Part shown: positions 11,384 to 62,205 of the stretch, piece by piece
Numbering within the stretch: position 1 is the first letter of the stretch
Layout of the letters: the number at the start of each line of letters is the position of its first letter
DNA from: an uncultured Bacteroidales bacterium
GTDB taxonomy: Bacteria; Bacteroidota; Bacteroidia; Bacteroidales; Muribaculaceae
Direction: 5' to 3'
Length of the DNA: 64,000 nucleotides
Assembly: GCA_902782465.1 (NCBI GenBank)
Contig: CACZNH010000001.1
Location: 186,001 to 250,000 of the forward strand
Program-made: the position numbers and the translations under genes
The notes under the pieces: generated by a model
Database searches by the model: none
Told to the model about the DNA's origin: nothing
The model's input: only the letters and a program-made list of their open reading frames with translations

Positions 11384-11411
11384 AATGTTTAATGTTTAAA
11401 GGTTAATGAAA
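11384..11411. repeat. 7-bp word array
   Basis: Four consecutive heptamers (AATGTTT, AATGTTT, AAAGGTT, AATGAAA) lie in the leader region between the GT operon promoter and its first gene. It is the leftmost example I found of the heptad arrays described in the findings. Confidence 0.6.
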
Positions 11412-11522
11412 TACAGACTTTAATCTTCAGGTAAAAATCTTTATCCATTAAACTTTATCTTTTATTCTCAAGTTTTTAAAGTGGCATAGCTGCTTTAGAA
11501 ACTTGATTCTTAATTTTGACCA

Positions 11523-11554
11523 CGAAAGTAGTCATTTTTTGATAATGTGACAAA
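11523..11554 (-). promoter_or_regulatory. Promoter-like site, glycosyltransferase operon
   Basis: On the minus strand TTTG is followed after 20 bp by TACTTTCG, one mismatch from the Bacteroidetes -7 consensus TAnnTTTG with the usual -33 TTTG. It lies about 185 bp upstream of the first GT2 gene. The frr promoter-like site has the same TTCG variant. Confidence 0.55.
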
Positions 11555-11567
11555 CTATCCTTAAAAA

Positions 11568-12785
11568 TTATTGGAAGGTTAGTGATGAGAGGCGGTCGGC
11601 GGCAAGATAGGTAGCCGCTTGGGCAATCTCTTCGGGCGTGACGGCCTGGATGCGCTCGATGGTGTCACCGATGCTTGCCACCTGGCCATGATAGAGCATC
11701 CCTCGTCCGGCACGCATAGCCATGAACTCGGTGCTGTCGGCAGCCACCATGAGTTGGCCGCAGTACTGTTTCTTGTAGGCATCGAGACGTCGTGCAGGCA
11801 GTATTTCCTGGCTCAGGCGGCTCGTGATGCGTTCGATGACGCGCAGGCTGGAGCGCACGTCGTCGGGGTCGCAGCCCAGGTAAATCTCTATCCATCCGCA
11901 GTCGGTGAGCAGCGTCAGCGTCGATTCTACGGTATAGACATAGCCCCGTCGTTCACGCAGTTCCACGTTGAGCAGCGAGTTCATGCCCGGACCACCCAGG
12001 ATGTTGTTCAGCAGCATCAGGGCATGACGCAGGGGATGGCTCATGTCGGGAACGCGTGCCCCCACGATGGTGTGTGCCTGATGGGTGCCGATTGGGATGG
12101 TGCGCCTGAACGGTTCGACCGCTGCAGGCATGACGCGTTGCCTGGCCGGCAGTTTGTGGCTCATGGGTGCGAAGTGTTTTTCGGCCAGTCTGAATACACG
12201 TTCGGGCCGTTCGGGTCCCACCGAGAAGAATGCCATGTTACCGGGCACATACAGCGTTTTGAGGTAGCTCATGCAGTCCTCGCGTGTGATGTTCTCCAGG
12301 TCCTCTTTACGTCCTAGGATGTTGTGTCCCAGCTGGCTGCCTGCAAACAGCAGGTCCTCGAAGTCGTCATAGACGGCATCGCTGGGCGTGTCGCGGTAGC
12401 TGGCGGCTTCCTCAAGCACCACGTCGCGCTCGCGGTCCAGCTCCTCTTGCGGGAACACCGACCACTGCACCAGGTCGGCAAGCAGGTCTATCGCCCGCTC
12501 CAGGTGCTGGTGAGGAAATACCGAGTAGAGCATGGTGCCCTCCTTGGTCGTGTAGGCGTTCAATTCGCCGCCCACGCACTCCATGCGGTTCAGGATGTGC
12601 CAGGCGCGGCGGTGTTTCGTGCCCTTGAAGATGGTGTGCTCGACGAAGTGCGCCAGGCCGAATTTCCCTGCGCACTCGTCGCGGCTGCCCGCATTCACGG
12701 CGAGACCGCACCAAGCCACTTGGTTGGTGGTACGGATGTGCACCAGCCGCAGTCCGTTCACCAGCGTATGATAGTAAATGTTCAT
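11568..12785 (-). CDS. M16 family zinc peptidase (pitrilysin-type)
   Basis: The product has 405 residues with no signal peptide. The inverted zinc motif HxxEH is present as HFVEHTIFKGT at about residue 47, with the downstream acidic region ERDVVLEE. The C-terminal half contains LLNNILGGPGMNSLLNVELRERRGYVYTVES, which includes the conserved R/Y region of the second M16 domain. The length matches the single-gene cytoplasmic M16B processing-peptidase type of Bacteroidetes. Its natural substrate is unknown. It is probably transcribed apart from the GT operon, since 206 bp with repeats and a promoter lie downstream. Confidence 0.93.
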   Translation of the reverse strand: MNIYYHTLVNGLRLVHIRTTNQVAWCGLAVNAGSRDECAGKFGLAHFVEHTIFKGTKHRRAWHILNRMECVGGELNAYTTKEGTMLYSVFPHQHLERAIDLLADLVQWSVFPQEELDRERDVVLEEAASYRDTPSDAVYDDFEDLLFAGSQLGHNILGRKEDLENITREDCMSYLKTLYVPGNMAFFSVGPERPERVFRLAEKHFAPMSHKLPARQRVMPAAVEPFRRTIPIGTHQAHTIVGARVPDMSHPLRHALMLLNNILGGPGMNSLLNVELRERRGYVYTVESTLTLLTDCGWIEIYLGCDPDDVRSSLRVIERITSRLSQEILPARRLDAYKKQYCGQLMVAADSTEFMAMRAGRGMLYHGQVASIGDTIERIQAVTPEEIAQAATYLAADRLSSLTFQ

Positions 12786-12792
12786 TTTCTTT

Positions 12793-12813
12793 TTAGTCCT
12801 TAGTCCTTATACG
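12793..12813. repeat. 7-bp word array (TTAGTCC type)
   Basis: Two copies of TTAGTCC plus TTATACG lie just upstream of the M16 start codon. The reverse complement, GGACTAA, is the word used at 16043, 16501 and 59401. Confidence 0.6.
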
Positions 12814-12814
12814 C

Positions 12815-12988
12815 TGTTGCAAAACTTCATTTGACACAGTTTTAATCGGCCTATCGGCCGAGAAATTAAACAAAATTTGTATAAAAATTAAACAAAATAA
12901 ATTTTTATTTATAATTTTGCTTAATTTGGCTTCGCTAAAGGTTCTCGCGCGTAGCGCGATTATCTTTTGAGGCATTAGTTTTGCAACA
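12815..12988. mobile_element. MITE-like element with 12-bp terminal inverted repeats
   Basis: The 174-bp AT-rich segment begins TGTTGCAAAACT and ends AGTTTTGCAACA, a perfect 12-bp terminal inverted repeat. Inside are two strong hairpin words, CGGCCTATCGGCCG and CTCGCGCGTAGCGCGA, which also occur in the 51.5-kb and 59.2-kb repeats. No transposase is encoded and no clear target-site duplication is visible, so mobility is only inferred. An open frame across it (12793-12975, minus) looks accidental. Confidence 0.45.
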
Positions 12989-13009
12989 CCCTATTCTCAC
13001 TGTTCACTG

Positions 13010-13687
13010 TCAAAGGCGGGTGTTCAGGTGGAGGATGTGCTGCACGAGGAGCATCTCATGGATGTCGGCGCGGCGCACGTCCATGTCGTCATAGTTGGGG
13101 TTCTCGCTGCGCAGCACCACCATGTTGGGGTCGCTGTGGCGGCGCACATACTTCACCACCCTGAAATCGTCGAGCTGGACGAGGTAAATCTGTCCCCAGT
13201 AAATCTGGCTCAGGTTGCTCACCTCACGTACGGCGATGAAGTCGCCATCGTTGATGACGGGTGCCATCGAGTCGCCGCTCACGCGCACGATGCGGCAGTT
13301 GGGGCTCATGTTGGGCAGGTTCACCCATCCGATGATGTTTTCGCTGGCAAACAGTTCGGCGCGGCCCGAGGCCACTCCGGCGGTGGCATCCACGTCATAG
13401 ACCGGCGTGCCGGTGTTTGCCAAGGTACCGTCAGTGACTTCGACCTGGGCAGGAGTCTTGGCAAAGGGCAAATCCGTGCCGTCGAGCAGCCATTCCTTGG
13501 ACACGCCCAGGTTCACCACCAGGCGGTTCAGGAACGAGTCGCTGAGTGGCATGTGGCCATTGAGGTATTTTGACAGGTTGGAGGTGTCAACCCCTATGCG
13601 CTCGGCAAACTGGACTTGCTTGACGCCCATTTCCTTCATCAAATACTTGATTCGCGCGATGATTTCGGCATTTTTCTCTGGTTCCAT
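13010..13687 (-). CDS. XRE-family regulator with S24/LexA-like peptidase domain
   Basis: This 225-residue protein has an N-terminal helix-turn-helix (about 8-65; VKQVQFAERIGVDTSNLSKY). It is followed by a LexA/CI-type S24 domain with the catalytic serine in VSGDSMAPVI (about residue 139) and lysine in FRVVKYVRR (about 178). Proteins of this build repress genes and may inactivate themselves by self-cleavage after DNA damage or other stress. A good promoter lies at 13868-13899, giving a leader of about 170 nt. The leader contains two direct copies of GTTGTTCATGTTGTT and a 26-bp motif, which are possible autoregulatory sites. No phage genes are near, so it need not be a prophage repressor. Confidence 0.92.
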   Translation of the reverse strand: MEPEKNAEIIARIKYLMKEMGVKQVQFAERIGVDTSNLSKYLNGHMPLSDSFLNRLVVNLGVSKEWLLDGTDLPFAKTPAQVEVTDGTLANTGTPVYDVDATAGVASGRAELFASENIIGWVNLPNMSPNCRIVRVSGDSMAPVINDGDFIAVREVSNLSQIYWGQIYLVQLDDFRVVKYVRRHSDPNMVVLRSENPNYDDMDVRRADIHEMLLVQHILHLNTRL

Positions 13688-13734
13688 TATTTTTCAGAGT
13701 TTTAAGTTTTAAGTTGGCATCCGCGCCTCTTATT

Positions 13735-13760
13735 CAAACAACTGTAACAACGTTGAACAA
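13735..13760 (+). promoter_or_regulatory. 26-bp motif, copy 1
   Basis: CAAACAAC-N4-ACAACGTTGAACAA, with N4 = TGTA. The same bipartite sequence recurs at 14043, 51480 and (inverted, one mismatch) 59302. Its position in the leader of the XRE-S24 gene makes it a candidate operator. It could equally be part of a repeated intergenic element. Confidence 0.4.
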
Positions 13761-13789
13761 TAAAAACAAATTAATAATCATAAATGAAA

Positions 13790-13823
13790 GTTGTTCATGT
13801 TGTTGTTTGTTGTTCATGTTGTT
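13790..13823. repeat. Direct repeat GTTGTTCATGTTGTT x2
   Basis: Two copies at 13790-13804 and 13809-13823 have a 19-bp period. They lie in the predicted 5' leader of the XRE-S24 regulator gene, where a repressor could block elongation or initiation. Confidence 0.45.
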
Positions 13824-13867
13824 TGAGAAACCTCAAACGCCTGATGCCTTTTATTGTTTTGTTGCGG

Positions 13868-13899
13868 CAAAATTACCACAAAAGTTTGCGTTATGCAAA
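13868..13899 (-). promoter_or_regulatory. Promoter of XRE-S24 regulator
   Basis: The minus strand reads TTTG-N20-TAATTTTG, an exact match to the Bacteroidetes -33/-7 consensus. The predicted start is near 13863, about 175 nt before the ATG. Confidence 0.7.
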
Positions 13900-14310
13900 T
13901 TTTTCCTTGTTTTTTCGTCCATTTTATTGATTTCACGAGCACGCATCAACGAATAAGGAAATTCTAATTTGATAGTTTTTACAATGCATGCGTGTGATTT
14001 CAAACAACTGATAATTCTGATGGGCATCCGCACTCCTTCTTTCAAACAACTATTACAACGTTGAACAACTGAAACAACGTTTTTTATTTGGCCTTTAGGC
14101 CACCCGTTTTCCGTCACTCCTTCGGAGTTTTTTGTTGGGGATTCCCCTTTGCAGGGGTTGCAGTCGGCTGCGCCTCCTTCCACCACCTGCCTATAATCTT
14201 GTCAGGCCTACGGCCTTTTTTATTTGACATTGCACTTGTTTTTGTCGGTTTAGTTGGTGCCTATTTGCTAAAAAACGGAAAAATGCGTTTTGACATGGTG
14301 TTTTGCACTA
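13900..14310. other. Non-coding stretch with serial hairpins
   Basis: I see no credible gene here. The stretch contains the second copy of the 26-bp motif (14043-14068), a GGCATCCGCACTCC core, and then a run of small GC-rich stem-loops: GGCCTTTAGGCC, ACTCCTTCGGAGT followed by T6, CCCCTTTGCAGGGG, and AGGCCTACGGCCT followed by T6. Open frames at 13851-14186 and 14088-14351 have no family features. Confidence 0.5.
14204..14225 (+). terminator. Terminator-like hairpin
   Basis: AGGCC-TAC-GGCCT is followed directly by a T-rich tract on the plus strand, the form of an intrinsic terminator. A similar ACTCC-TTC-GGAGT plus T6 hairpin lies at 14116-14133. No plus-strand gene ends just upstream, so they may instead be repeat modules. 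Confidence 0.35.
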
Positions 14311-15973: not shown

Positions 15974-16070
15974 AGCGGCTGGCGCCGCTGTGTAAGGTGT
16001 ATTTGCTGGCTAACGCCAGCGTGTATGGTGTATGGAAAACTAAGGACTAAGGACTAAAAACTAAGGACTT
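15974..16070. repeat. Hairpins and 7-bp word array
   Basis: Two perfect stem-loops (GCGGC-TGGC-GCCGC and GCTGGC-TAAC-GCCAGC) are followed by GTGTATG x2, then AAAACTA, AGGACTA, AGGACTA, AAAACTA, AGGACTT in phase, ending three bases before the next ATG. Confidence 0.7.
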
Positions 16071-16072
16071 AA

Positions 16073-16438
16073 ATGATAGGATTACAACATACCAGTCAAC
16101 TGACGGTTACCTATGAGGTGACTGCCGTTGCGATGGGGTCGGGCGACATGGCTGTGCTTGCCACGCCTGCTATGATGGCGCTCATGGAGAATGCCGCGAT
16201 GCTCGCTGTGGCCGACCATCTGCCTGAGGGATGTACCACCGTGGGCGGACATATCGCCTCGTCGCACCTCAAACCCTCGAAAGTGGGCGACACGGTGACG
16301 GCGACCGCCACGGTCATCAAGGCCGAGGGGAAGAAAATCGAGTTCAAGGTCGAGGCACATTGTGGCGACACGCTGCTGGGCGAGGGCACCCACCTGCGCT
16401 TTATCGTCGACCGCGAGAAGTTTTTAAAGAGGCTTTAG
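16073..16438 (+). CDS. Hotdog-fold thioesterase (FlK-like)
   Basis: This 121-residue protein fits the small FlK/4HBT-like hotdog family: ATPAMMALMENAAMLAVADHL is the helix that packs in the hotdog roll, followed by GGHIASSHLKPSKVGDTV and TATATVIKAEGKKIEFKVEA strands. Such enzymes hydrolyse acyl-CoA thioesters, possibly damaged or toxic ones. The substrate is not predictable. The last codons (RL and stop) lie within the first 7-bp words (GGCTTTA, GGCTCTA) of the downstream array. Confidence 0.85.
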   Translation: MIGLQHTSQLTVTYEVTAVAMGSGDMAVLATPAMMALMENAAMLAVADHLPEGCTTVGGHIASSHLKPSKVGDTVTATATVIKAEGKKIEFKVEAHCGDTLLGEGTHLRFIVDREKFLKRL

Positions 16439-16528
16439 GCTCTAGGCTTTAGGCGTTAGGAGTGAACAGTGAACAGTGAACAGTTGGCGGATGCCAAATA
16501 AGGACTAAGGACTAAAAGCTAAGGACTA
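16431..16528. repeat. 7-bp word array around GCGGATGCC core
   Basis: Eight in-phase heptamers (GGCTTTA, GGCTCTA, GGCTTTA, GGCGTTA, GGAGTGA, ACAGTGA, ACAGTGA, ACAGTTG) are followed by a 14-bp core containing GCGGATGCC, then AGGACTA, AGGACTA, AAAGCTA, AGGACTA. The array begins inside the thioesterase gene. Confidence 0.8.
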
Positions 16529-16534
16529 AAAAAT

Positions 16535-17685: not shown

Positions 17686-17793
17686 TTTTAGGCATTAGGC
17701 TTTAGGCATTAGGCATTAGGCTTTAGGTGTTAGGCTTTAGGCTTTAGGTGTTAGGCATCAGGTGGCATTCGCACCCTAAAGCCTAATGCCTTA
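17686..17793. repeat. 7-bp word array (TTAGG type)
   Basis: Eleven heptamers in perfect phase from 17686 to 17762 (TTTTAGG, CATTAGG, CTTTAGG, CATTAGG, CATTAGG, CTTTAGG, TGTTAGG, CTTTAGG, CTTTAGG, TGTTAGG, CATCAGG) are followed by a core TGGCATTCGCACC and then inverted words CTAAAGC, CTAATGC, CTTATAA. It fills the rbr-NAGLU gap. Confidence 0.85.
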
Positions 17794-23338: not shown

Positions 23339-23421
23339 TTTATTTAACCGCGAATTTCACGAATTTAGCGAATGGCATCCGCACGGCTAATCTTAACGAT
23401 TTATTGGTTAGTTCGATGAAT

Positions 23422-24456
23422 TTACTGGATGGTGACTTCGCCGCAGAGGTCGCTGGCCATGTATTTCTTGACCATATTGGGGGTGTAGCGCATGCCGAAG
23501 AGGAACATCAGTTTGGTGATGGCTGCTTCGCTGGTCATGTCGTATCCGCTGATGACGCCTGCCCCGGTGAGGGTGTTGCCCGTCTCGTAGAGGGAGCAGT
23601 TGACACCGCCGTTGACACACTGGGTGACGTTGACGACGACCACGCCGCGGTTAACCGCCTCGCGGATGCGCTCGATGAACCAGGGATGGCTGGGGCTGTT
23701 GCCGGCGCCGTAAGTCTTGAGGACGATGCCCTTGATGCCCGGGGTGTGCAGCATGTAGTCCAGCGTCTGCTCGGTCATGCCAGGGTTGAGCTCGAGGAAC
23801 ATGACTGCAGGATCCATGTCGGTGCAGACCTTGAGGGGACGTGGTGGCATCTGGCGCAGGTAGGGGGTGTTATATTCGATATCGAGGCCGATTTCGGCGA
23901 GTTCGGGATAGTTGAAACTCTTGAAGGCGTTGAAGTTGTCGGCACTCATCTTGGTGGCACGGTTGCCGCGCCACAGGTAGTTCTCGAACAGGATGGCGAC
24001 TTCCTGCACGCGGGGACGTCCGCGCTCGTCGGTGGCGGCAGCGACCTGCAGGGCGGTGATGAGGTTCTCCTCGCCGTCGGTGCGCACCTCGCCGATGGGC
24101 AGCTGCGACCCGGTGATGATGACGGGTTTGCTCAGGTTCTCGAGCATGAAACTCAGTGCCGATGCGGTGAACGCCATCGTGTCGGTGCCGTGGAGCACGA
24201 CGAAGCCGTCGTACTGGTCATAGCGCTCCTCGATGGCGAGAGCAATGTCGCGCCAATGTGACGGGTCCATATTGGAACTGTCGATGGGCGGCGTGAACTG
24301 GACGTTGTCGATGTGGTAGTGCAGTTTCTTAATCTTGGGCACGTTGTCGATGAGATGCGAGAAATCAAAGGGCTGCAGGGCTCCGGTCTCGGGATTCTCA
24401 ATCATGCCGATGGTACCGCCGGTGTAGATAATCAGTATTTTGGGTCGGTTTTGCAT
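23422..24456 (-). CDS. ansA: Type I L-asparaginase
   Basis: The 344-residue product has no signal peptide, so it is cytoplasmic. The two asparaginase signatures are present: IYTGGTIGMIEN at the N-terminus with the nucleophilic Thr, and VLHGTDTMAFTASALSFM near residue 90 with the second Thr-Asp pair. AnsA hydrolyses asparagine to aspartate and ammonia. An 83-bp gap with an ACGAATTTCACGAATT-like stretch and a GGCATCCGCA core separates it from mfd downstream. Confidence 0.95.
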   Translation of the reverse strand: MQNRPKILIIYTGGTIGMIENPETGALQPFDFSHLIDNVPKIKKLHYHIDNVQFTPPIDSSNMDPSHWRDIALAIEERYDQYDGFVVLHGTDTMAFTASALSFMLENLSKPVIITGSQLPIGEVRTDGEENLITALQVAAATDERGRPRVQEVAILFENYLWRGNRATKMSADNFNAFKSFNYPELAEIGLDIEYNTPYLRQMPPRPLKVCTDMDPAVMFLELNPGMTEQTLDYMLHTPGIKGIVLKTYGAGNSPSHPWFIERIREAVNRGVVVVNVTQCVNGGVNCSLYETGNTLTGAGVISGYDMTSEAAITKLMFLFGMRYTPNMVKKYMASDLCGEVTIQ

Positions 24457-24462
24457 AGTTTC

Positions 24463-24490
24463 TAGTTTTAAGTTTTTAGTCCTTAGTTTT
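24463..24490. repeat. 7-bp word array
   Basis: Four in-phase words TAGTTTT, AAGTTTT, TAGTCCT, TAGTTTT lie between ansA and the esterase gene. They run into the last codons of the esterase gene (stop at 24483). Confidence 0.65.
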
Positions 24491-29509: not shown

Positions 29510-29518
29510 TTCTCTTGG

Positions 29519-29597
29519 TTTTCAGTTTTCAGTCTTCAGTTTTCAGTTTTCAGTTAATCGCGGATGCCGCTGACAACTGACGACTGCAAAACTGAAA
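29519..29597. repeat. 7-bp word array (TTTTCAG / CTGACAA) around GCGGATGCCG
   Basis: TTTTCAG, TTTTCAG, TCTTCAG, TTTTCAG, TTTTCAG precede a 16-bp core with GCGGATGCCG, then inverted words CTGACAA, CTGACGA, CTGCAAAA, CTGAAAA. The core and right arm encode the C-terminal tail of the GSCFA protein. Confidence 0.85.
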
Positions 29598-30567
29598 ATT
29601 TTTTATTTAGTTCGGGATTGTCGGCCAGGTAGGGATATTCCTTGATGAGGTTGCGGATGACGCTGGCAGTGTCGGCGTTGAAGCGGTCCACCGTTTCGCG
29701 GTTTGCACTCATGGGTCGATGCTGCAGGCGCTTGTGTATGCGCTCGCAGCGTGCCACGGCCAGGGCGCTGCGGTCATCGAGGTAGGTTGCCTGGAAGGCT
29801 TGCCAGATGTATTCTACCGCCATGTCGCTGGGATGAACCATGTCACTGCCATAGAAGCGGTAATCGCGCAGGTCGTCCATCATGATTTCGAAGGCGGGGA
29901 AATAGTCGCAATAGTCGCGGTGGGCGGCTATGACCTCATGAATTGCGACACGCAGCAGCGCCTTGCTCAGCGAGTTGGTGTCCAGCCCGTCGGCAATGTG
30001 GCGGATGGGGCTTACTGTGAGGATAATGCGCAGCTCGGGATTGAACGCATGCAGTCGTGTGAGCATATCGTCCAGGGCATGAACGGCCTCGGTGACGGTT
30101 ACCATTTGGCGCGTGAACTCATGCTGCGGCACCTTGTGGCAGTTGGCGACGACCTCGCCTGTGGAACGCAAGCGGTAGACCATTGCCGTTCCCAGGGTGA
30201 CCGTGAGCAGACTTGCCTGCTTGAGGGCCTCGTGTCCCAACTCGATTTGACGATTCATGTGGTCAATGGTTGCCTGCTTGTCGGGCAGCGAGTGACGTGA
30301 GTGGAAGTCATAGCTGTTCCACACGCCCCCCTGCATGAACAGGTCACGTCCCGCAATGGGCTCTCCCGCGATGAGCAACTGCATGCCGCGGGCGATGCTC
30401 AACGGGTTGTAAAGTGTGCCCATGGGGTTGACCGTAGCGCGGATAAACGCCCCGTGCATCTTGGCACCGATGTTGTCGCTGAAACACGACCCAAGCAGCA
30501 CCACGCCATCGCTATGGTGCAACCAACCACGGTCCTCGCCCGTCTTCACTGTCGTCCTGAACTCCAT
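29554..30567 (-). CDS. GSCFA domain protein
   Basis: The first ATG at 30567 gives MEFRTTVKTGEDRG; the longer frame needs TTG. The 337-residue product has the family hallmark LLGSCFSDNIGAKM near residue 29 and later LTVSPIRHIAD and VHPSDMAVEYIWQAF, which resemble the SGNH/GDSL hydrolase blocks I and V. A carbohydrate- or lipid-esterase role has been supposed for the family but is not established to my knowledge. The last 14 or so residues (SVLQSSVVSGIRD) come from an intergenic repeat element and are likely dispensable. Confidence 0.88.
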   Translation of the reverse strand: MEFRTTVKTGEDRGWLHHSDGVVLLGSCFSDNIGAKMHGAFIRATVNPMGTLYNPLSIARGMQLLIAGEPIAGRDLFMQGGVWNSYDFHSRHSLPDKQATIDHMNRQIELGHEALKQASLLTVTLGTAMVYRLRSTGEVVANCHKVPQHEFTRQMVTVTEAVHALDDMLTRLHAFNPELRIILTVSPIRHIADGLDTNSLSKALLRVAIHEVIAAHRDYCDYFPAFEIMMDDLRDYRFYGSDMVHPSDMAVEYIWQAFQATYLDDRSALAVARCERIHKRLQHRPMSANRETVDRFNADTASVIRNLIKEYPYLADNPELNKKFSVLQSSVVSGIRD

Positions 30568-31849: not shown

Positions 31850-31940
31850 TAGTTGTAAGTTTTAAGTTTTAAGTAAGATTACTAACGCCTGACACCTAAT
31901 GACTAACGCCTAACGCCTAATGCCTAATGCCTAATGCCTA
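31850..31940. repeat. 13 in-phase 7-bp words
   Basis: TAGTTGT, AAGTTTT, AAGTTTT, AAGTAAG, ATTACTA, ACGCCTG, ACACCTA, ATGACTA, ACGCCTA, ACGCCTA, ATGCCTA, ATGCCTA, ATGCCTA run without any phase break and end exactly at the stop codon of the GT2 gene. This is the clearest array in the window. Confidence 0.9.
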
Positions 31941-39123: not shown

Positions 39124-39132
39124 CAGAGATCA

Positions 39133-39153
39133 GATAATAGATAATAGATATTA
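39133..39153. repeat. 7-bp word array (GATAATA)
   Basis: GATAATA, GATAATA, GATATTA lie in the short gap between the two GH25 genes. Confidence 0.65.
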
Positions 39154-39160
39154 GTTGGGG

Positions 39161-39904
39161 ATGATGGTCGGAGGTTATCAGTTGGCAAAAGGTGATTGGC
39201 GATTAGCGATTGTGCTGATGCTGACTGTGCTGTGTTCCTGCGTTGGCAGCAACAGCCGCCGCATCAACGACGTCATCCGCAACATGCCCTCACGTGATGC
39301 GTCGGCCCCCTACGACGGCATCGACATCTCCAGCTATCAGGGTTATATCGACTGGAACAAGGTGAGCAGCGACAAGAACATCCGTTTTGTGTACATCAAG
39401 GCCACCGAGGGCGCCACCTACCGCTCGACACATTACGTTCATAACCTGACGCAGGCTCGCCGCAACGGCCTGCTCGTGGGCAGCTACCATTACCTCTCGC
39501 CGTCGTCAACCGTCGATGAGCAGTTCCAGAATTTCTCCAGTTTTGCCCTCAAGGATGTGCAGGACCTGGTGCCCATGCTCGATGTTGAGGTGCGTGGCGA
39601 GTGGTCACGCAGCCAGCTCATCGATAGCGTGGACAAGTTCTGCAACCTGATAGAGCGCCACTTTGGCGTGCAGCCCATGATTTACAGCACGATGGAATTT
39701 TACAACAAGAATCTTACCCCCCATTTCAATAAGCACCTCCTGTACATTGGTCGCTATTCCAACGAGGAGCCTGAAATCAACTGGGAAGGCCAGTACACCG
39801 TCTGGCAGTTCAGCGAGACGGGCATCATCCCCGGCATCAACGCCTATGTGGACCTGTGTCACTTCCACAAAGATGCCTGGCTCCAGGATATTATCCTGAA
39901 GTAG
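39161..39904 (+). CDS. GH25 muramidase lipoprotein
   Basis: The ATG at 39161 is preferred over an upstream TTG at 39155. The 247-residue product has a lipoprotein signal with lipobox VLCSC. The GH25 domain has the catalytic YDGIDISSYQGYIDW and MLDVEVRGEW motifs, VGSYHYLSPS, and YTVWQFSETG. It is a shorter paralogue of the preceding gene without linker or tail, and is probably co-transcribed with it. The stop codon TAG is the first three bases of a TAGGCTT word array. Confidence 0.9.
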   Translation: MMVGGYQLAKGDWRLAIVLMLTVLCSCVGSNSRRINDVIRNMPSRDASAPYDGIDISSYQGYIDWNKVSSDKNIRFVYIKATEGATYRSTHYVHNLTQARRNGLLVGSYHYLSPSSTVDEQFQNFSSFALKDVQDLVPMLDVEVRGEWSRSQLIDSVDKFCNLIERHFGVQPMIYSTMEFYNKNLTPHFNKHLLYIGRYSNEEPEINWEGQYTVWQFSETGIIPGINAYVDLCHFHKDAWLQDIILK

Positions 39905-39957
39905 GCTTTAGGTTTTAGGCTTTAGGGGTGCGGATGCCACCTAACGCCTAACCCCCT
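39902..39957. repeat. 7-bp word array around TGCGGATGCC, possible two-way terminator
   Basis: TAGGCTT, TAGGTTT, TAGGCTT are followed by a core GGTGCGGATGCCACC and inverted CTAACGC, CTAAC words. It fills the gap between the convergent GH25 and U32 genes, where its dyad could stop transcription from both sides. Confidence 0.7.
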
Positions 39958-41201: not shown

Positions 41202-41206
41202 ATATT

Positions 41207-41311
41207 TAGTTTTAAGTTTTAAGTTTTTAGTTGTAAGTAATATTACCAATGTCTCTTGGCGTAAAGGCGACAGTAATTGTACTAAAAACTTACAACTTAC
41301 AACTTAAAACT
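41207..41311. repeat. 15 in-phase 7-bp words with AGTAAT-ATTACC core
   Basis: TAGTTTT, AAGTTTT, AAGTTTT, TAGTTGT, AAGTAAT, ATTACCA and so on to TACAACT, TACAACT, TAAAACT are in one phase. The outer words are inverted relative to each other. The right half shares more than 25 bp with the array at 46049-46080. Confidence 0.85.
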
Positions 41312-41314
41312 ATG

Positions 41315-45964: not shown

Positions 45965-45973
45965 TTCAGCCCA

Positions 45974-45981
45974 CAAAGGTA
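45974..45981 (-). promoter_or_regulatory. -7 box of porin-mutS operon
   Basis: TACCTTTG on the minus strand ends 9 nt before the ATG at 45964, implying a leader of only a few bases. The upstream side is a 7-bp word array, with no -33 TTTG seen. Confidence 0.5.
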
Positions 45982-45986
45982 GTAAA

Positions 45987-46090
45987 AAGTTTTAAGTTTT
46001 AAGTTTTAAGTTTAAGTAATGTTACCTGAATTGTCACTACACCTGCAGGCGACAGTAATTGTACTAAAAACTTACAACTAAAAACTTACA
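45987..46090. repeat. 7-bp word array with AGTAAT-GTTACC core
   Basis: AAGTTTT x3, a 6-bp AAGTTT slip, AAGTAAT, GTTACCT, then further words ending ACTAAAA, ACTTACA, ACTAAAA, ACTTACA. It shares a long stretch with the 41.2-kb array. Confidence 0.8.
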
Positions 46091-46092
46091 AC

Positions 46093-50149: not shown

Positions 50150-50155
50150 TTTTTT

Positions 50156-50232
50156 CAGTTTTCAGTTTTCAGTAAGATTACTATCGCCTAAAACTTCTAA
50201 CTTCTAACTCCTAACTTCTAACTCCTAACTCC
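50156..50232. repeat. 11 in-phase 7-bp words with AGTAAG-ATTACT core
   Basis: CAGTTTT, CAGTTTT, CAGTAAG, ATTACTA, TCGCCTA, AAACTTC, TAACTTC, TAACTCC, TAACTTC, TAACTCC, TAACTCC. The last two words encode the C-terminal residues and stop of SbcD. Confidence 0.9.
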
Positions 50233-52203: not shown

Positions 52204-52218
52204 AATCTTTGTTGTTTT

Positions 52219-52295
52219 AAGTTTTAAGTTTTTAGTTTTAAGTAAGGTTACTATCGCCTAAAACTTCTAACTCCTAACTTTTAACTTCTAACGTA
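52219..52295. repeat. 11 in-phase 7-bp words with AGTAAG-GTTACT core
   Basis: AAGTTTT, AAGTTTT, TAGTTTT, AAGTAAG, GTTACTA, TCGCCTA, AAACTTC, TAACTCC, TAACTTT, TAACTTC, TAACGTA end exactly at the stop codon at 52296. It is strikingly similar to the array at 50156. Confidence 0.9.
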
Positions 52296-56199: not shown

Positions 56200-59082
56200 A
56201 TGAACCAAGTCCATAGACTATTCACCATGTTGATGGTCATCGCGCTGAGCAGCGCGACGGCTTTTGCCGTGGTTGACCCTTACGAGGTCATGGCTGTCAC
56301 CCCTGCCGAGGGCACGGTGGAGAGCCTGCAGCATTTTACCATCACCTTTGCCGACCTGCCGGTGACGGTGAACGAGAATGCCGTCCCCACGCTGGAGAAG
56401 GGCGGTGGGGCGACCCTCAAGGGCACCATGCGTGCCGATGAAGAGGGCAAGACCGTGATTATCGACTTTGACGAGTGCTGCACCGCCTCGGGACATTACT
56501 ACCTGAACATCCCCGAGAACTCCCTTACCGTCAATGGCCAGCGGCTGCTGCCCATGACGCTCAGGTTTGACATCAGCGGCACCACAGAATCATTTTACGA
56601 GCAGATTACCATCAACCCCGCCGAGGGTACTGTGGAAAGCCTGCAGAATTTCACCCTTTCCCTGCCCGAGTATGTGGGTGAGATAGAGTACGGCATGCGT
56701 GCAACGCTCACCAACACCACCACGGGCAAGAGCTGGCAGGCCGAGATGTATGATGTGCGCTACACCGTGCTGATGTACTTCCCACAGGAAGTGACCGAGG
56801 CCGGCGAATACACGCTGACGATTCCCGCTGGCGCCATCATCATCTACAGCATGGACGAGGCGGTGCATGAACTCAACTTCCACTACACCATCGAGGGCGG
56901 CAGTGTGCAGCAGTTCTATGACCAGATAACCATCAACCCTCTCGAGGGCTTTGAGGAGATGTTGCAGCGCTTCACCATCACCTTCCCGATGGCGGTGGAC
57001 AGCATTGCCGACGGCAGTGTGGCCACGCTGGGCAATATCACTAAGGGCCATACCTGGCAGACGACGATGAGTGCCGACGGCAACCAGGTGACGATGGACT
57101 TTGGCAACCGGATTGAAGAGTCGGGCCGATACGCCTTGATTATCCCCGCTGGCGCTGTCATCGTGAATGCCCTGGGCGAAGAGGTGCATGAACTCAGGTT
57201 TGAATACACGATTTCTGGTGAGGGCATGCCCGACTACACCATCAATCCTCCCGAGGGCGAACTGTATATCCTGCAGAACTTCACCCTCGCCTATGGGGAA
57301 AAGGTGGAAGTCCTGGAGAGCGTCCACCCCGTACTGGCCAACGATTCAACCGGCGAGGAATTCCTGTGCAACATGATGGAGATTGGAGAGAATGCCGTGG
57401 TCTATCTGGAGTATCCCACGAGCGTGGTGGGAAACTATACGCTCACCATCCCTGCGGGCTGCATCATGGTGCAGGCCACAGGCCAACTCAATCCCGAGAT
57501 GGTCTTCCACTACACCGTTGTAGAGAAGGACATCTATATTCCCCCCGTCATCGAAGCCCAGCCCGAGGGCGAACTGCACCTGTACATGCGCTCGGGAAGC
57601 ATTGTCAGGGAAGTCGAGCGTGAGGACGCCCAGGAGGGCGAGGACGTCTATGAGATTATCTACGGCGACCAGGAAGGCGTGTTGAGCTTTGTGTTTGCCG
57701 ACAGCAACAAGGTGTACATCCAGCGCCCCGTCTCCTGGACCTATTATGACGGATGGGTGGAAGGTACCTTGAGCGAGGACGGCAAGACCATCACCGTGCC
57801 CATGGGACAGTATATCGCCTACACCAAGTCGCTGGAGATGGCGGTTCAGGTCGCCATGTTTGCCTACGACGAGGAGCGCGACAGCTACTTCTATGACGAC
57901 TCCATCACCGAGGTGACCTACACCATCAACGACGATGGCTCCATCAGCCTCAACGGCACCGACATGAACCTGGTGATGGGAACCATGAACCGGGCCTTCG
58001 GCCAGAATTTCCAGTACCTCGACTACGAGTGGCTGCAGGCCGGCGACTTCGGGTCAACCTATCTGCCCATTGATGAGGCCCCCTTGTCACCGCCCGCCGA
58101 CATGGAAATCGAGACCTACTACCTGACCACCGCCATCAACGATGGCTATGCATGGGATCCCTATCGCGCCACCGTCAATGTGGGATTCTATGGCGACGAG
58201 GTGTGGATCCAGGGCATCTCCGAGTATCTGCCTAAGGCGTGGATTAAGGGCGAGAGCAAGGGCAACACTGTCACCTTCGCCAACCCGCAGCTGCTGGGCT
58301 CCAACGATGTGCTCTTCTACTTCAAGTGTGCCCACTACAATCCCGTTGACGGCAGCACGACGCAGAAGGATATGGTGCTGACGTTCAATGATGCGCGCGA
58401 CCTGACGACGTTTGATTACATCTTCATCACCGTCGACAAGGACAACCTGTACTATGTCAATTACTACCAAGGACTCACCCTCTCCAGGCATCCCGACGCG
58501 CTGCTCCAGGCCCCCGAGGACCTCGAGTTCAAGGAGTATGAGTTCTCTTACCAGACCCAGTACAATGTCAACCGCCCCCCCGTCGAGGACAGCCACACCG
58601 TCAAGGTGGGCTTCACCGATGAGTATGTGTACATCCAGGGCATCTGGCCCGGTCTGCCCGAGGCATGGGTAGCCGGTGTGCTTAGGAACGGAAAAATCGA
58701 GTTCACCCTGCCGCAGTACATGGGCCGCTATGAGGATGAGTATGAAGGGACTTACCCCATCTACCTCGGCACCTTTGACAAGAACAACGGCTCAGTGCTG
58801 ACGCAAGTCGTCTTTGATTACGACAGCAACACCGGCGTGTTCAGTAACCTGACCATGCCCTTCAGCATCGGCATCAACAAGACCGGTTACCTGAGCGTGC
58901 AGGACTACAGTAAGCTGGTGTTCACCCCCGTGAACTCTGCGGTCGAGGAGGTGAAGGCCGGTGTCAACGGTCCTGTCGAGTACTACGACCTGCAGGGCCG
59001 CCGCTTGACCGATATCAGCAATGCCACCGGCATCATCATCGTCAAGAATGCCGACGGCACCGCTACCAAGATCCTCAAGTAA
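56200..59082 (+). CDS. Large secreted protein with four Ig-like repeats and C-terminal sorting-like tail
   Basis: The 960-residue product has a signal peptide (about 1-24). Four repeats of about 110 residues follow, starting VTPAEGTVESLQHF, INPAEGTVESLQNF, INPLEGFEEMLQRF and INPPEGELYILQNF. A middle/C-terminal part (about 450-920) is rich in Tyr and Asp, with two similar blocks (DMEIETYYLTT...VNVGFYGDEVWIQGI and DLEFKEYEFSY...VKVGFTDEYVYIQGI). The end, YYDLQGRRLTDISNATGIIIVKN, is like type IX sorting domains. It follows the dockerin paralogue by 47 bp and ends in a 7-bp array with a terminator. Confidence 0.85.
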   Translation: MNQVHRLFTMLMVIALSSATAFAVVDPYEVMAVTPAEGTVESLQHFTITFADLPVTVNENAVPTLEKGGGATLKGTMRADEEGKTVIIDFDECCTASGHYYLNIPENSLTVNGQRLLPMTLRFDISGTTESFYEQITINPAEGTVESLQNFTLSLPEYVGEIEYGMRATLTNTTTGKSWQAEMYDVRYTVLMYFPQEVTEAGEYTLTIPAGAIIIYSMDEAVHELNFHYTIEGGSVQQFYDQITINPLEGFEEMLQRFTITFPMAVDSIADGSVATLGNITKGHTWQTTMSADGNQVTMDFGNRIEESGRYALIIPAGAVIVNALGEEVHELRFEYTISGEGMPDYTINPPEGELYILQNFTLAYGEKVEVLESVHPVLANDSTGEEFLCNMMEIGENAVVYLEYPTSVVGNYTLTIPAGCIMVQATGQLNPEMVFHYTVVEKDIYIPPVIEAQPEGELHLYMRSGSIVREVEREDAQEGEDVYEIIYGDQEGVLSFVFADSNKVYIQRPVSWTYYDGWVEGTLSEDGKTITVPMGQYIAYTKSLEMAVQVAMFAYDEERDSYFYDDSITEVTYTINDDGSISLNGTDMNLVMGTMNRAFGQNFQYLDYEWLQAGDFGSTYLPIDEAPLSPPADMEIETYYLTTAINDGYAWDPYRATVNVGFYGDEVWIQGISEYLPKAWIKGESKGNTVTFANPQLLGSNDVLFYFKCAHYNPVDGSTTQKDMVLTFNDARDLTTFDYIFITVDKDNLYYVNYYQGLTLSRHPDALLQAPEDLEFKEYEFSYQTQYNVNRPPVEDSHTVKVGFTDEYVYIQGIWPGLPEAWVAGVLRNGKIEFTLPQYMGRYEDEYEGTYPIYLGTFDKNNGSVLTQVVFDYDSNTGVFSNLTMPFSIGINKTGYLSVQDYSKLVFTPVNSAVEEVKAGVNGPVEYYDLQGRRLTDISNATGIIIVKNADGTATKILK

Positions 59083-59110
59083 GGTTTCAGGCTTTAGGTT
59101 TTAGGTTTTA
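59083..59110. repeat. 7-bp word array (GGTTTTA)
   Basis: GGTTTCA, GGCTTTA, GGTTTTA, GGTTTTA follow directly after the stop codon and lead into the GGGGCATCCGCA terminator. Confidence 0.75.
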
Positions 59111-59113
59111 GGG

Positions 59114-59148
59114 GCATCCGCATTCAATTGAGTGCGGATGTCTTTTTT
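59114..59148 (+). terminator. Terminator of the large Ig-like protein gene
   Basis: GCATCCGCATT-CAATTG-AGTGCGGATG is followed by TCTTTTTT. The loop differs from the mirror copy at 51650-51689, but the stem is the same, so pairing is conserved. Confidence 0.75.
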
Positions 59149-59379
59149 GTCGGCCTGGCGGCCGAGAAATCCAACAAAATCTGTTCAAATTGAACAAATC
59201 TCTTCATTTAATTTGCTTGATTTGCTAAGATTTGCATGATTTGGCTACGCCGAGCAAAAGGCTCTCGCGCGTCAGCGCGACTAAAATAACAGTTGTTCAA
59301 GTTATTCAACGTTGTCCATGTTGTTTGAACAAAAATGTTGTCTGAGTTGTTTGATGAGGGTTGGTGAGAGAAAAATTAT

Positions 59380-59387
59380 TATCTTTG
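59380..59387 (+). promoter_or_regulatory. -7 box of histidine phosphatase gene
   Basis: TATCTTTG at the outer end of the inverted-repeat arm, about 45 bp before the ATG at 59434. A 7-bp word array (GGACTAA x2, AAACTAA, GGACTAA) lies between box and gene. Confidence 0.6.
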
Positions 59388-59400
59388 CAGCATCGACTAC

Positions 59401-59428
59401 GGACTAAGGACTAAAAACTAAGGACTAA
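59401..59428. repeat. 7-bp word array (GGACTAA)
   Basis: GGACTAA, GGACTAA, AAACTAA, GGACTAA in phase, in the 5' leader of the first phosphatase gene. The same word set precedes the genes at 16073 and 16535. Confidence 0.75.
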
Positions 59429-59433
59429 ATAAT

Positions 59434-60726
59434 ATGAAACGAATTGTCTTACTTTTCACTGTGGCGATGGTGGGGTGGCTGTGCCTCACGGCTGGGGTGC
59501 GCGAGGATTTCAAGGCCAACCCCAAACTGAGCGCCAACAACTATCAGGCCTATCCTGACAAGGCACTGCCCGCCATTCCGGCGGCGCCTGCAGGCTATGA
59601 GCCGTTTTTCATCAACCACTACGGCCGCCACGGCAGCCGCTGGCTTATCAACAGGACGAAATATTCCTATCCCCTGCAGATGCTGGAAATGGGTGAGCGC
59701 AACGGCAAACTCACTCCCCGCGGCCAGCAGGTACTCAACATCCTGCGTGAGGTGAATGAGGCCAGCCAGGGCCGCCTGGGCGAACTCAGCGACATCGGCC
59801 ACGAGCAGCACCAGGGCATCGCCCGTCGCATGTTCCAGAACTTCCCGCAGGTGTTCAAGGATGGGGCACCCGTGAATGCCCGTTCGACGATCGTCATCCG
59901 CTGCATCCTGTCGATGCAGAACGAGGTGGATGTGCTGGCATCGCTCAATCCCAAGCTCAACATCACCACCGACGCCAGCGAGGCGACGATGTATTATATG
60001 AACTATAAGGACACCGTGGTCAGGTCCCTGCGTGAGCAGATGGCGCCGCTGCGCGAGCAGTACATGAACAAGTGGCTCAACCCCAAGCACATGTTCAAAA
60101 AGCTGTTCAAGGACCAGAAGTTTGCCCGCGACAGCGTGACCGATGGCCGCAAGATGCTCCTCTACCTGATGGAGGTGGCCGGCAACATGCAGAGTCATCA
60201 CCAGTTTGAGCAGGTGGACCTGTATGACTTGTTCAGTGCCGATGATATTTATAATGTGTGGCGCTACAATAACCTCTACTGGTATGTATGGTCGGGCGAG
60301 ACGCCGCTGACGCAGAATCGCGTGGACTATATGGAAGCCAACCTGCTGCGCAACTTCATCGAGGATGCCGACCGTGCCACCACTACCGACAACCGCACGC
60401 CTGGCGCGTCGCTGCGCTTCGGCCACGAGAGCGTGGTGCTGCCTCTGTGCTGTCTGATGGGCCTGAACGGCGCTGACTACCGCACGTCCGACGTCGAGAC
60501 GCTGGACCAGCACTGGCAGACCTACAAAATCTTCCCGATGGCCGCCAACATCCAGTTCGTGTACTTCCGCAAGGCGGGCAACGACGATGTGCTGATGCTG
60601 CCGCTGCTCAATGAGCGCGTTGCAACGCTGCCTGTTGAGACCGATGTCGCCCCCTTCTACCACTGGACCGATGTGCGCGACTATTTCATCGATAAACTCT
60701 CCCGTCAACCCATTGTGAAACAATAG
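59434..60726 (+). CDS. Secreted histidine phosphatase (Minpp/phytase-like)
   Basis: The 430-residue product has a signal peptide (about 1-22). The clade-2 histidine phosphatase motif NHYGRHGSRW lies at about 61-70, with the second catalytic region RFGHESVVLPLCCL near 329 giving the HE pair. NARSTIVIRCILSMQNE is a conserved middle block. Relatives include Bacteroides Minpp-type phytases, which remove phosphates from inositol hexakisphosphate; phytase activity is inferred, not shown. It is the first of a tandem pair and has its own promoter in the inverted-repeat arm. Confidence 0.88.
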   Translation: MKRIVLLFTVAMVGWLCLTAGVREDFKANPKLSANNYQAYPDKALPAIPAAPAGYEPFFINHYGRHGSRWLINRTKYSYPLQMLEMGERNGKLTPRGQQVLNILREVNEASQGRLGELSDIGHEQHQGIARRMFQNFPQVFKDGAPVNARSTIVIRCILSMQNEVDVLASLNPKLNITTDASEATMYYMNYKDTVVRSLREQMAPLREQYMNKWLNPKHMFKKLFKDQKFARDSVTDGRKMLLYLMEVAGNMQSHHQFEQVDLYDLFSADDIYNVWRYNNLYWYVWSGETPLTQNRVDYMEANLLRNFIEDADRATTTDNRTPGASLRFGHESVVLPLCCLMGLNGADYRTSDVETLDQHWQTYKIFPMAANIQFVYFRKAGNDDVLMLPLLNERVATLPVETDVAPFYHWTDVRDYFIDKLSRQPIVKQ

Positions 60727-60812
60727 TTTTCAGTCTTCAGTCTTCAGTTTTCAGCGGCATCCGCATTTTACTGAAAACTGAAAACTGAAAACTGACAACT
60801 GACAACTGAAAT
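60727..60812. repeat. Inverted 7-bp word array (TTTTCAG / CTGAAAA) around GGCATCCGCA
   Basis: TTTTCAG, TCTTCAG, TCTTCAG, TTTTCAG, then CGGCATCCGCATTTTA, then CTGAAAA x3, CTGACAA x2, CTGAAAT. The left and right arms can pair into a hairpin of about 28 bp with the GGCATCCGCA core in the loop. It fills the gap between the two phosphatase genes. Confidence 0.9.
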
Positions 60813-60815
60813 AAA

Positions 60816-62135
60816 ATGAAAAAGTTCATCACATACATTACCATTCTGGCATTTGCCGTCATGACGGTGAGCGCCCAAACGCCGCACAAGCAGGTCATCA
60901 GCAACTTTGACCGCTCGGCCAGTAACCACTATGCCTACCCCTACGGCACCGACGTGAAGGTGCCCGTGTTGACGGCAGCACCAGCGGGTTATGAGCCTTT
61001 CTATATCGACCACTACGGCCGCCACGGCAGCCGCTGGCTGACCAATGCCAAGTATTATGAACGCCCCTGCAAGGAACTTGCCAAGGCCAAAGAGGCGGGT
61101 ATGCTCAACCTGCAAGGCGAACTGTTGCGCCGCCAACTGAGCATGGTGTATGAGACCTCCAAGCAGCGTGCCGGTGACCTGAGCGACGAGGGCGCCCTGC
61201 AGCATCAGGAAATCGCCCAGCGCATGTTTGATAACTTCCCCGAGGTGTTTGCCGGCGATGCCCGCGTGGATGCCCGCTCAACCGTCATCATCCGCTGCAT
61301 CCTGTCGATGCAGAACGAGACAATGCGCCTGCGCTCGCTCAACCCTGACCTGCGCATCACCACAGACGCCAGCTACCACGACATGTACTACATGGGGTGG
61401 GGCTACGGCGAGGACACCCTGGCCAACGACCTGCGCAAGAGCGTGGACCCGATTTCCAACGGGATGTATGACAAGCACCTGAATCCCCAGCGCTTCATTG
61501 CCCAACTGGTGAACGACACCGCATGGGCTGCTGCCAACCTGAACGGACGTCAACTGATGCGTGACGTGTTCGACGTGGCTGGCTCGCTGCAGGGACACCA
61601 GTTCTTTGACGACGTTAACCTGTACCACTACTTCAGCAACAACGAGATTTTTGAGCTGTGGCGCCTCAAGAACATCTACTGGTACATCCATTGGGCCAAT
61701 GCGCCCCAGAACGGCAACCGCATGCCCTTTATCGAGCGCGCCCTGCTGCGCGACATGATTGAGAAGGCCGACGAGGCCATCGCCACGGGCGAACGCGGCG
61801 CCTCGCTGCGCTTTGGCCACGAGACCTGTGTGCTGCCGCTGGCCTGCCTCATGGAGCTCGACAGCGTCAACTACAGTTGTGAGAACCTTGACGAACTGCA
61901 TGAGCATTGGCAGGACTACAATACCATCCCCAAGGCCTGCAACATTCAGATGGTCTTCTACCGCCCCATCGGCTCAACTGGCAACAATCCCGACGACATT
62001 CTGGTCAAGGTCCTGCTCAACGAACACGAGGCACTGCTGCCAGTCACCCCCGCCCAGGGACCCTACTACCGCTGGAGCGATCTGCGCCGCTACTACGACA
62101 AGAAACTCCAGACCGTCATCGACTGGAGGGTTTGA
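60816..62135 (+). CDS. Secreted histidine phosphatase (Minpp/phytase-like), second copy
   Basis: The 439-residue product has a signal peptide (about 1-22, VSA-QT). It has DHYGRHGSRWLTN at about 65, DARSTVIIRCILSMQNE, and RFGHETCVLPLACL near 333, aligned with its upstream neighbour throughout. The two proteins are clearly paralogous but diverged, so the duplication is not recent and may reflect different substrates or cleavage positions. A strong terminator follows. Confidence 0.88.
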   Translation: MKKFITYITILAFAVMTVSAQTPHKQVISNFDRSASNHYAYPYGTDVKVPVLTAAPAGYEPFYIDHYGRHGSRWLTNAKYYERPCKELAKAKEAGMLNLQGELLRRQLSMVYETSKQRAGDLSDEGALQHQEIAQRMFDNFPEVFAGDARVDARSTVIIRCILSMQNETMRLRSLNPDLRITTDASYHDMYYMGWGYGEDTLANDLRKSVDPISNGMYDKHLNPQRFIAQLVNDTAWAAANLNGRQLMRDVFDVAGSLQGHQFFDDVNLYHYFSNNEIFELWRLKNIYWYIHWANAPQNGNRMPFIERALLRDMIEKADEAIATGERGASLRFGHETCVLPLACLMELDSVNYSCENLDELHEHWQDYNTIPKACNIQMVFYRPIGSTGNNPDDILVKVLLNEHEALLPVTPAQGPYYRWSDLRRYYDKKLQTVIDWRV

Positions 62136-62136
62136 T

Positions 62137-62170
62137 AAAAAAAGGTGCCGCGATTGCGGCATCTTTTTTT
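62137..62170 (+). terminator. Intrinsic terminator after phosphatase pair
   Basis: AAAAAAAGGTGCCGC-GATT-GCGGCATCTTTTTTT is a near-perfect hairpin with A and T tracts on both sides. It would end transcription from the plus strand and also from the convergent GT4 gene. Confidence 0.85.
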
Positions 62171-62205
62171 GATTAGTGATTAGTGGTTAGTGATTAGTGA
62201 TCGGT
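62171..62205. repeat. 7-bp word array (GATTAGT)
   Basis: GATTAGT, GATTAGT, GGTTAGT, GATTAGT, GATCGGT. The array overlaps the stop and last codons (LTDH) of the GT4 gene. Confidence 0.75.

Follow-up and report, generated by a model that had tools for sequence, protein, structure and literature searches.

The window (the whole 64,000-nucleotide stretch of DNA analysed here, from an uncultured Bacteroidales bacterium) carries tandem 7-bp arrays in many of its intergenic gaps. A sequence-only reading had placed them in about 18 gaps, and the lag-7 scan bears this out, scoring 24 arrays in 17 window gaps. Genes were called with a home-made caller, and the gene at 17786-20011, for which the script favoured an antisense frame, was set by hand. 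Where arrays are paired we describe them as opposed arms around a core, in a layout that would read (NNNTHAG)n, short core, (CTDANNN)n over roughly 60-140 bp.

Several sites consist of a single array. The array scan picked up a weak array of the word TGTTTAA (11383..11406, +), which falls outside the NNNTHAG rule, as does the GATAATA array at 39132..39154 (+). Arrays of TCCTTAG lie 7 bp from the start of the minus-strand gene 11568-12785 (12793..12809, +) and, reading CTAAGGA on the plus strand, 8 bp before the start of the plus-strand gene 16073-16438 (16039..16064, -). A TTTTTAG array occupies the whole of a 26-bp gap (24456..24487, +), a TGATTAG array lies in a convergent gap (62170..62201, +), and the GCNTTAG array at 17688..17762 (+), which has a 21-bp higher-order repeat, measures 10.7 copies, in agreement with the 11 words counted before (17686-17762).

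Other sites show two arms, a core, or both. A left arm of GCGTTAG/GCTTTAG and TGAACAG words (16430..16484, +) overlaps the TAG stop of 16073-16438 and faces a right arm of TCCTTAG/TTTTTAG (16499..16531, -), with the core GCGGATGCC between them. The same core recurs in a convergent gap beside a GCTTTAG array and a short opposed arm recognised by eye (39902..39947, +), and in a gap with period-9 AATT-type arms, also seen by eye, and no 7-bp array (23339..23421, -). Two further sites had been counted as 13 words at 31850-31940 and as 15 words at 41207-41311; arrays are present at both, but each resolves into two. The first comprises two blocks whose words differ (4.0 and 8.4 copies), namely a TTTTAAG arm before the start of 30729-31847 (-) (31851..31874, +) and a GCGTTAG/GCATTAG arm after the stop of 31938-32954 (-) (31882..31940, -). 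The second is a complete element between mutS and the next gene (41202..41314, -), in which opposed arrays of 4.4 and 3.6 copies flank a core with TTACTGTCGCC; a copy of its family lies at 45965..46092 (-). The core GGCGATAGTAA marks elements at 52204..52295 (-) and 50150..50232 (-), the latter with an AAGTTAG/GAGTTAG arm after a stop and a CTGAAAA arm before a start. Another complete element, with a TTTTCAG arm, GGCATCCGC core, CTGAAAA arm and a strong predicted hairpin, lies at 60727..60815 (+). In its copy at 29518..29598 (-), the TTTTCAG array (29518-29555) occupies the whole gap, and the remainder, with the GGCATCCGC core, covers the end of the called gene 29554-30567. A GTTTTAG arm followed by GGCATCCGC (59082..59112, +) has its TCCTTAG partner arm at 59395..59428 (-). 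A separate 224-bp dispersed repeat lies between these two arms.

Period, vocabulary and polarity

The lag-7 excess proposed as a check was found in intergenic DNA and was absent from coding DNA, both in the window and in a further 400 kb of the same genome (including 72 kb masked as N). In the window gaps (37 gaps, 10-700 bp) the lag-7 base match was 0.357, with secondary peaks at lags 14 and 21; mononucleotide shuffles gave 0.274 and coding DNA 0.244. In the additional sequence the match was 0.320 across 188 gaps, and coding DNA was without a peak. Since lags 1-3, 6 and 8 likewise stood above shuffle in these 400 kb (z 6-25), the array scan is a cleaner test than autocorrelation. With N removed, it returned 78 non-coding arrays and 1 coding array at period 7, and 0-6 non-coding arrays at each of periods 4-6 and 8-13. 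Four successive THAG motifs spaced at period 7 occurred 145 times and never at periods 5, 6 or 8-13, and the reversed motif, also taken four times, gave no occurrence at any period.

That a constant period is combined with a changing word is true, yet the variation is not arbitrary: the NNNTHAG rule is fitted by 64/71 arrays, among which there are 16 words in all, and by 16% of heptamers in array-free intergenic DNA. Polarity is inward, away from the gene borders, in 56 of the 64 rule-fitting arrays. Congeners gave similar figures, with 67/88 arrays fitting the word rule and 57/67 pointing inward. Copied arrays are not independent, and these word and polarity counts therefore overstate the number of separate events.

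Gene context and folding

Arrays in this genome occupy 51/145 co-directional, 5/34 convergent and 0/21 divergent gaps. This distribution, together with array starts within 8 nt of a stop codon in 27/51 cases, is what might be expected of selected RNA elements, that is, intercistronic hairpins or leader arrays that set the translation, processing or stability of the adjacent genes, or, in a variant, sites at which an RNA-binding protein is bound at THAG/CTDA every 7 nt. Folding adds something to the same side, as z fell below -2 in 16/39 array-bearing co-directional gaps against 14/53 array-free ones. We nonetheless consider such selection rather unlikely as the general explanation. Exclusion from divergent gaps does not hold as a general rule, being non-significant among congeners (7/91 divergent vs 59/455, p 0.22) and in G007 and G017, the two congeners with the most sequence sampled irrespective of arrays (1/46 vs 26/245, p 0.09). 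On the start side the distances are no shorter than in one random uniform placement (23/51 vs 19/51 arrays within 8 nt; median 14 vs 13), 4/7 window sites fold no better than shuffles, and array presence and words are poorly conserved across species. Seeding of arrays by the stop codon was considered separately and is unsupported, since phase 0 accounts for 8 of 24 cases and phases 1 and 5 for 6 each.

Hairpin-forming arms, which had been suggested for many sites, were recovered at 3/7 folded window sites, where the native fold beat all 200 shuffles, but not at the other 4, including the site at 31850, so that a single hairpin function for all arrays appears unlikely from these predicted folds. 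A comparison of arm words ruled out arms that are exact complements everywhere; within a gap they match slightly better than shuffled words (15 two-arm gaps, p ~0.1). Bidirectional transcription termination, one of the roles initially put forward, is scarcely credible, even though some hairpins are strong and symmetrical: arrays occupy a smaller share of convergent than of co-directional gaps, the poorly folding sites lack the stable hairpin that, with a following U tract, makes an intrinsic terminator, and the 40 kb scanned (window 11001-31000 and 44001-64000) held 25 terminator-like sites, a number no higher than in shuffles, of which none fell on an array. Searched against Rfam 15, the window gave no match at gathering score.

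Dispersed copies, turnover and origin

The changing word had been taken to speak against a single dispersed repeat, a view that the copies of the two gaps searched do not support. Elsewhere in the genome the element at 60727-60815 has 34 further long copies (alignments of 59-88 nt, 79-93% identity), and that at 41202-41314 has 11 (97-112 nt of the query aligned, 75-85%); with rows merged by place by hand and 40/128 and 40/104 first-look candidates scored, respectively, these counts are lower bounds. Comparing gaps with one another by blastn, similar pairs numbered 267/1596 among 57 array gaps, 40/8151 among mixed pairs and 23/10153 among 143 array-free gaps. Likeness between array gaps stems partly from the common words themselves. 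Cores are likewise concentrated, with GGCATCCGC in 12/62 array gaps vs 1/131 others and the type GGCGAYAGTAA in 7/62 vs 0/131. Because 43/62 array gaps carry neither exact core, and 14 of the 27 GGCATCCGC occurrences in 464 kb lie outside the counted gaps, some arrays may be free-standing rather than element arms.

Taken together, the dispersed long copies and common cores, the word rule and the polarity argue that the arrays are probably the arms of dispersed quasi-palindromic repeat families, spread by copying and with arms that change by slippage. An element would be copied to new gene junctions by transposition, as a non-autonomous element, or by conversion between sites, and its arms would then lengthen, shorten and drift in slippage steps of 7, 14 or 21. 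Insertions would persist mainly in short co-directional gaps, where the arms could supply stop codons and an A-rich leader and no gene would be broken. In RNA, some copies would form hairpins in the stretch between genes that are transcribed together, though this is not the function that the copies share, and the elements are most likely selfish or near-neutral DNA.

The principal rival is local replication slippage with a 7-nt bias, acting independently in each gap, with selection for stops and A-rich leaders shaping the words. In most bacterial genomes heptamers outnumbered every other long simple repeat (Mrazek 2007, as cited in PMC4679880), and a polymerase contact of 7 nt has been put forward (PMC4679880, PMC4692102). 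Within our own data, other Bacteroidales carry period-7 arrays with different words (13/80 named loci inspected closely), 14- and 21-bp block repeats occur inside arrays, and TAG stops are commoner before arrays (14/51 vs 6/94, p 0.0008). As sole cause slippage is nevertheless unlikely, as it is disfavoured by the common cores and dozens of long copies, by a vocabulary that is small and common to many sites, and by an inward polarity that it does not predict. Slippage is a likely means by which the arms change length.

Arrays of this type also occur in independent genomes of the genus, which disposes of the concern that they are an assembly artefact. The form with the GGCATCCGC core was found in 1 Bacteroidales genus of 25 searched. 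The element families turn over fast between species: at the same gene junction, sister species have elements present, absent or with other words. Of 31 comparisons of orthologous gaps with an array in this genome, 6 gave an array in the relative as well, against 4 of 32 comparisons with none here. The mutS gap of G007 retains both arms and the core, by eye, though it went unscored by the array scan. The orthologous gaps compared are too diverged for target-site duplications or clean empty/filled pairs to be visible.

Neither of two candidate copying enzymes could be tied to the elements. Reverse transcriptase (PF00078) has no match in this genome, which is 95% complete, and across 37 genomes of the genus its counts are uncorrelated with the number of arrays. 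For Y1/RAYT transposase that correlation is weak (Spearman 0.31, p 0.06, n 37), and both full-length Y1 genes of this genome lie away from elements. A broken Y1 gene is flanked by arrays on both sides; three Y1 loci were examined, and a fourth match is weak.

Relation to known heptamer repeats

No named family had come to mind for these arrays, yet heptamer arrays have been described in cyanobacteria, Xanthomonas, Beggiatoaceae and a few Bacteroidetes, and those reported here are a Bacteroidales counterpart of such repeats rather than a wholly new kind of DNA. The nearest of the known systems are the heptamers of cyanobacteria in which SDR elements are embedded, and the TAACTGA repeats. Tandem heptamers of heterocystous cyanobacteria are called STRR, and the arrays here likewise consist of tandem 7-bp units, intergenic and at many sites. 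The SDR elements of Nostoc punctiforme, described by Elhai and colleagues in 2008, are reportedly very small, recently mobile dispersed repeats, several with a hairpin and often embedded within tandem heptamer repeats. Set against that description, the likeness is a small dispersed core inside heptamer arrays, found here in only 19/62 array gaps; the differences are another phylum, the cores GGCATCCGC and GGCGAYAGTAA, and opposed arms with inward polarity. To our knowledge, heptamer arms are not a feature of REP sequences. The REP/BIME/REPIN systems with RAYT resemble the present elements as short dispersed intergenic palindromes (PMC3116915), and Y1 transposase genes are present in this genome, but the 3.3-kb loci of its two full-length copies contain neither an array nor a core.

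Passages on the three heptanucleotides of Calothrix (PMC4692102) share the tandem heptamers and make no mention of the paired inward arms and NNNTHAG rule seen here. As described in the same source, the GGGAATC and GGGGA(C/T)T heptamers of Xanthomonas and Nostoc (Rehm 2015, PMC4692102) form imperfect intergenic arrays, some inverted, that vary in length and sequence between related strains; their words differ in being G-rich with quadruplex potential. A Porphyromonas gingivalis MITE with a minisatellite is, by description only, another Bacteroidales inverted-repeat element with tandem repeats (PMC4596501). TAACTGA direct repeats form 7-bp arrays between genes in Beggiatoaceae, Cyanobacteria and five Bacteroidetes; in one of the genomes most of them immediately precede a start codon, in forward orientation (MacGregor 2015, PMC4679880). 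The rotation CTGATAA fits the CTDANNN of our elements; that work, in the part bearing on this comparison, concerns one word, whereas ours combine many words with opposed arms, cores and the dispersal of whole elements. Among the matches listed in a literature search, there was no apparent report of these elements in this group.

A more speculative proposal, which we regard as distinctly improbable, is a modular palindromic element with the constant tip GGCATCCGC. A copying activity would write its arms in fixed steps, each with an invariant tetramer and three free bases; the step would measure 7 nt where arrays abound and perhaps 9 nt (AATTNNNNN) in other genomes, and each species would have its own vocabulary. 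The evidence for 9 nt is thin. With all stretches pooled, three successive AATT motifs at period 9 occur 10 times, against 0-4 at other periods, but the lag profiles of single genomes are not decisive: G018 peaks at 9 (4 sites), and G017 has equal values at 6, 9 and 12, a pattern expected of coding DNA. Were the proposal true, the THAG/CTDA class, the inward polarity and the TAACTGA fit would indicate an element type that crosses phyla.

A single genus with dozens of species thus offers arrays that bear on why repeats in bacteria favour a period of 7 nt. Because the word rule, polarity, linked cores and rapid turnover are found together in that genus, the growth of arrays by 7-nt steps, their spread from site to site and their effects on neighbouring genes become separable and testable.

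Period seven in the intergenic gaps

The sequence-only reading had reported tandem heptamers in intergenic gaps of the window and asked for a lag-7 autocorrelation check, which bears the observation out: base match at lag 7 is 0.357 in the window gaps, against 0.274 after shuffling and 0.244 in coding DNA, and 0.320 in the 188 gaps of a further 400 kb of the same genome (G000), against 0.242 in coding DNA. Lags 14 and 21 also peak in gaps, and period 3 is the signal of coding DNA; in the 400 kb, gaps exceed the mononucleotide shuffle at lags 1-3, 6 and 8 as well. Across the combined 464 kb, an array scan returned 78 non-coding arrays and one coding array of period 7, compared with 0 to 6 non-coding arrays for periods 4-6 and 8-13; within the window, 24 arrays are spread over 17 gaps.

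The window also carries an 83-bp tandem repeat (14303-14565; 3.2 copies, 97%) directly ahead of the gene at 14591-15973, and intergenic repeats of periods 9 (AACGGATGT, 34827-34859) and 15 (AAGTTACATGGATGT, 63476-63507). Stretches from other Bacteroidales (L049, L061, L030, L055 and L060) hold 7-bp arrays of different words, such as TCGAAAG, GAATTAT and AGTTGAG.

Words, cores and dispersed copies

After rotation and orientation, NNNTHAG (H = A, C or T) fits 64 of 71 array words, as against 16% of array-free intergenic heptamers, and the vocabulary of these 64 arrays comprises 16 words, led by TTTTCAG (12), TTTTAAG (10) and GCTTTAG (9). THAG points inward, into the gap, in 56 of the 64 (29/30 where the nearest gene end is a start codon, 27/34 where it is a stop codon); among congeners, 67 of 88 arrays follow the word rule and 57 of those 67 the polarity. 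Because many arrays are each other's copies, the word and polarity counts represent non-independent events. G000 is a 3.13-Mb draft of 45 contigs, 95% complete, from a genus within Bacteroidales, and the top named match of its MutS in a single scan is a Muribaculaceae MAG (78% identity). Three consecutive TTTTCAG words match 90 times in the whole genome (reversed controls, 0) and not at all in 29 of the 36 congeners searched. Four THAG units at period 7 match 821 times in G000 (45 in reversed controls), the highest of 101 genomes searched, and 0 to 560 times in 60 other congeners; among the 40 genomes from other families, most have a low count or one that does not exceed the control, with G023, G030 and G096 as examples of genomes that do exceed it.

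Two short cores are tied to these gaps: GGCATCCGC, counted on both strands, occurs in 12 of 62 array gaps vs 1 of 131 array-free gaps, and a GGCGAYAGTAA-type core in 7/62 vs 0/131. Of 27 GGCATCCGC sites in the 464 kb, 13 lie inside these counted gaps, and at least one further site overlaps the end of a called gene, in an element copy at 29518-29598; the best lag in the flanks is 7 at 15 sites and 9 at five. GGCATCCGC followed by two CTDA units matches 45 times in G000; out of 61 genomes, the 15 that carry it all belong to the same genus (reversed controls total 2). The flanks of GGCATCCGC in four compared genomes (G043, G044, G047 and G048) likewise peak at lag 7, at 3-10 sites each in stretches picked for arrays.

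The arrays are dispersed repeat families having heptamer arms, and the earlier dismissal of a dispersed repeat came too early. With rows merged by hand, the complete gap 60727-60815 recurs at at least 34 other genomic places (alignments of at least 59 nt) and gap 41202-41314 at at least 11 (at least 97 nt). Among 200 gaps, similar pairs number 267/1596 between array gaps, partly through common words, 40/8151 in mixed pairs and 23/10153 between array-free gaps.

A second dispersed repeat, of 224 bp, is 94% identical between gaps 51454-51774 and 59083-59466, sitting in the latter between both arms of an array element; by eye, gap 12786-13009 contains a similar sequence. Elsewhere in G000 (L223 and L225, on contigs C11 and C13), Y1 transposase genes are adjoined by other REP-like palindromes, by eye CTGTCGCCCC or similar, which have the letters CTGTCGCC in common with the longer core at 41202-41314, perhaps by chance. 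The Y1 gene of L225 is broken and flanked by two inward-facing heptamer arrays (1132-1188 and 1899-1938 of that locus).

Gene context and RNA folding

Arrays in G000 occupy 51 of 145 co-directional, 5 of 34 convergent and 0 of 21 divergent gaps (co-directional vs divergent, p = 0.0003), with a weaker contrast in congeners (59/455, 6/84 and 7/91). Among the 51 co-directional gaps, 27 have an array beginning within 8 nt of the stop, compared with 18 in one random uniform placement, and 23 have one ending within 8 nt of the start, compared with 19, so there is no clear anchoring on the start side. TAG stops precede arrays in 14/51 co-directional gaps vs 6/94 without arrays (p 0.0008), the pattern that would follow if an array could extend into the end of a gene and provide its stop.

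Folding of seven window sites gave z-scores of -6.65 at 60720, -4.50 at 41200 and -3.38 at 17680, and from -0.98 to +1.03 at 16430, 31845, 39900 and 50146; among co-directional gaps of 40-200 bp, z falls below -2 in 16/39 with arrays vs 14/53 without. Rfam yielded no matches within the window. In 40 kb of it, 25 terminator-like sites were found, no more than in shuffles, and none falls on an array.

Turnover between species

In the stretches examined, little gene order survives in congeners whose MutS is 94-96% identical; conserved junctions allowed 63 comparisons: the relative scores an array in 6 of 31 where G000 has one and in 4 of 32 where it has none. At the mutS junction, as judged by eye, G007 retains both arms and the core with changed words, G006 and G018 carry a different palindromic element (GCGGATGCC, with period-9 arms), which in G018 surrounds a small gene, and G017 has an ATPase-like gene. 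At this junction in G018 (L145), inverted GGCATCCGC / AATT-type arms enclose the small gene, by eye encoding a GxxExxY-type protein, in a one-gene-cassette-like arrangement. At another junction (L095, 7757), G000 and G007 have the core in common and differ in their words. Arm change is likely to proceed by slippage in steps of 7; two papers report that slippage has been put forward for heptamers in general (PMC4679880, PMC4692102). The poor conservation of the arrays speaks against a general function of the elements, and arrays and elements alike can be explained without the need to invoke one.
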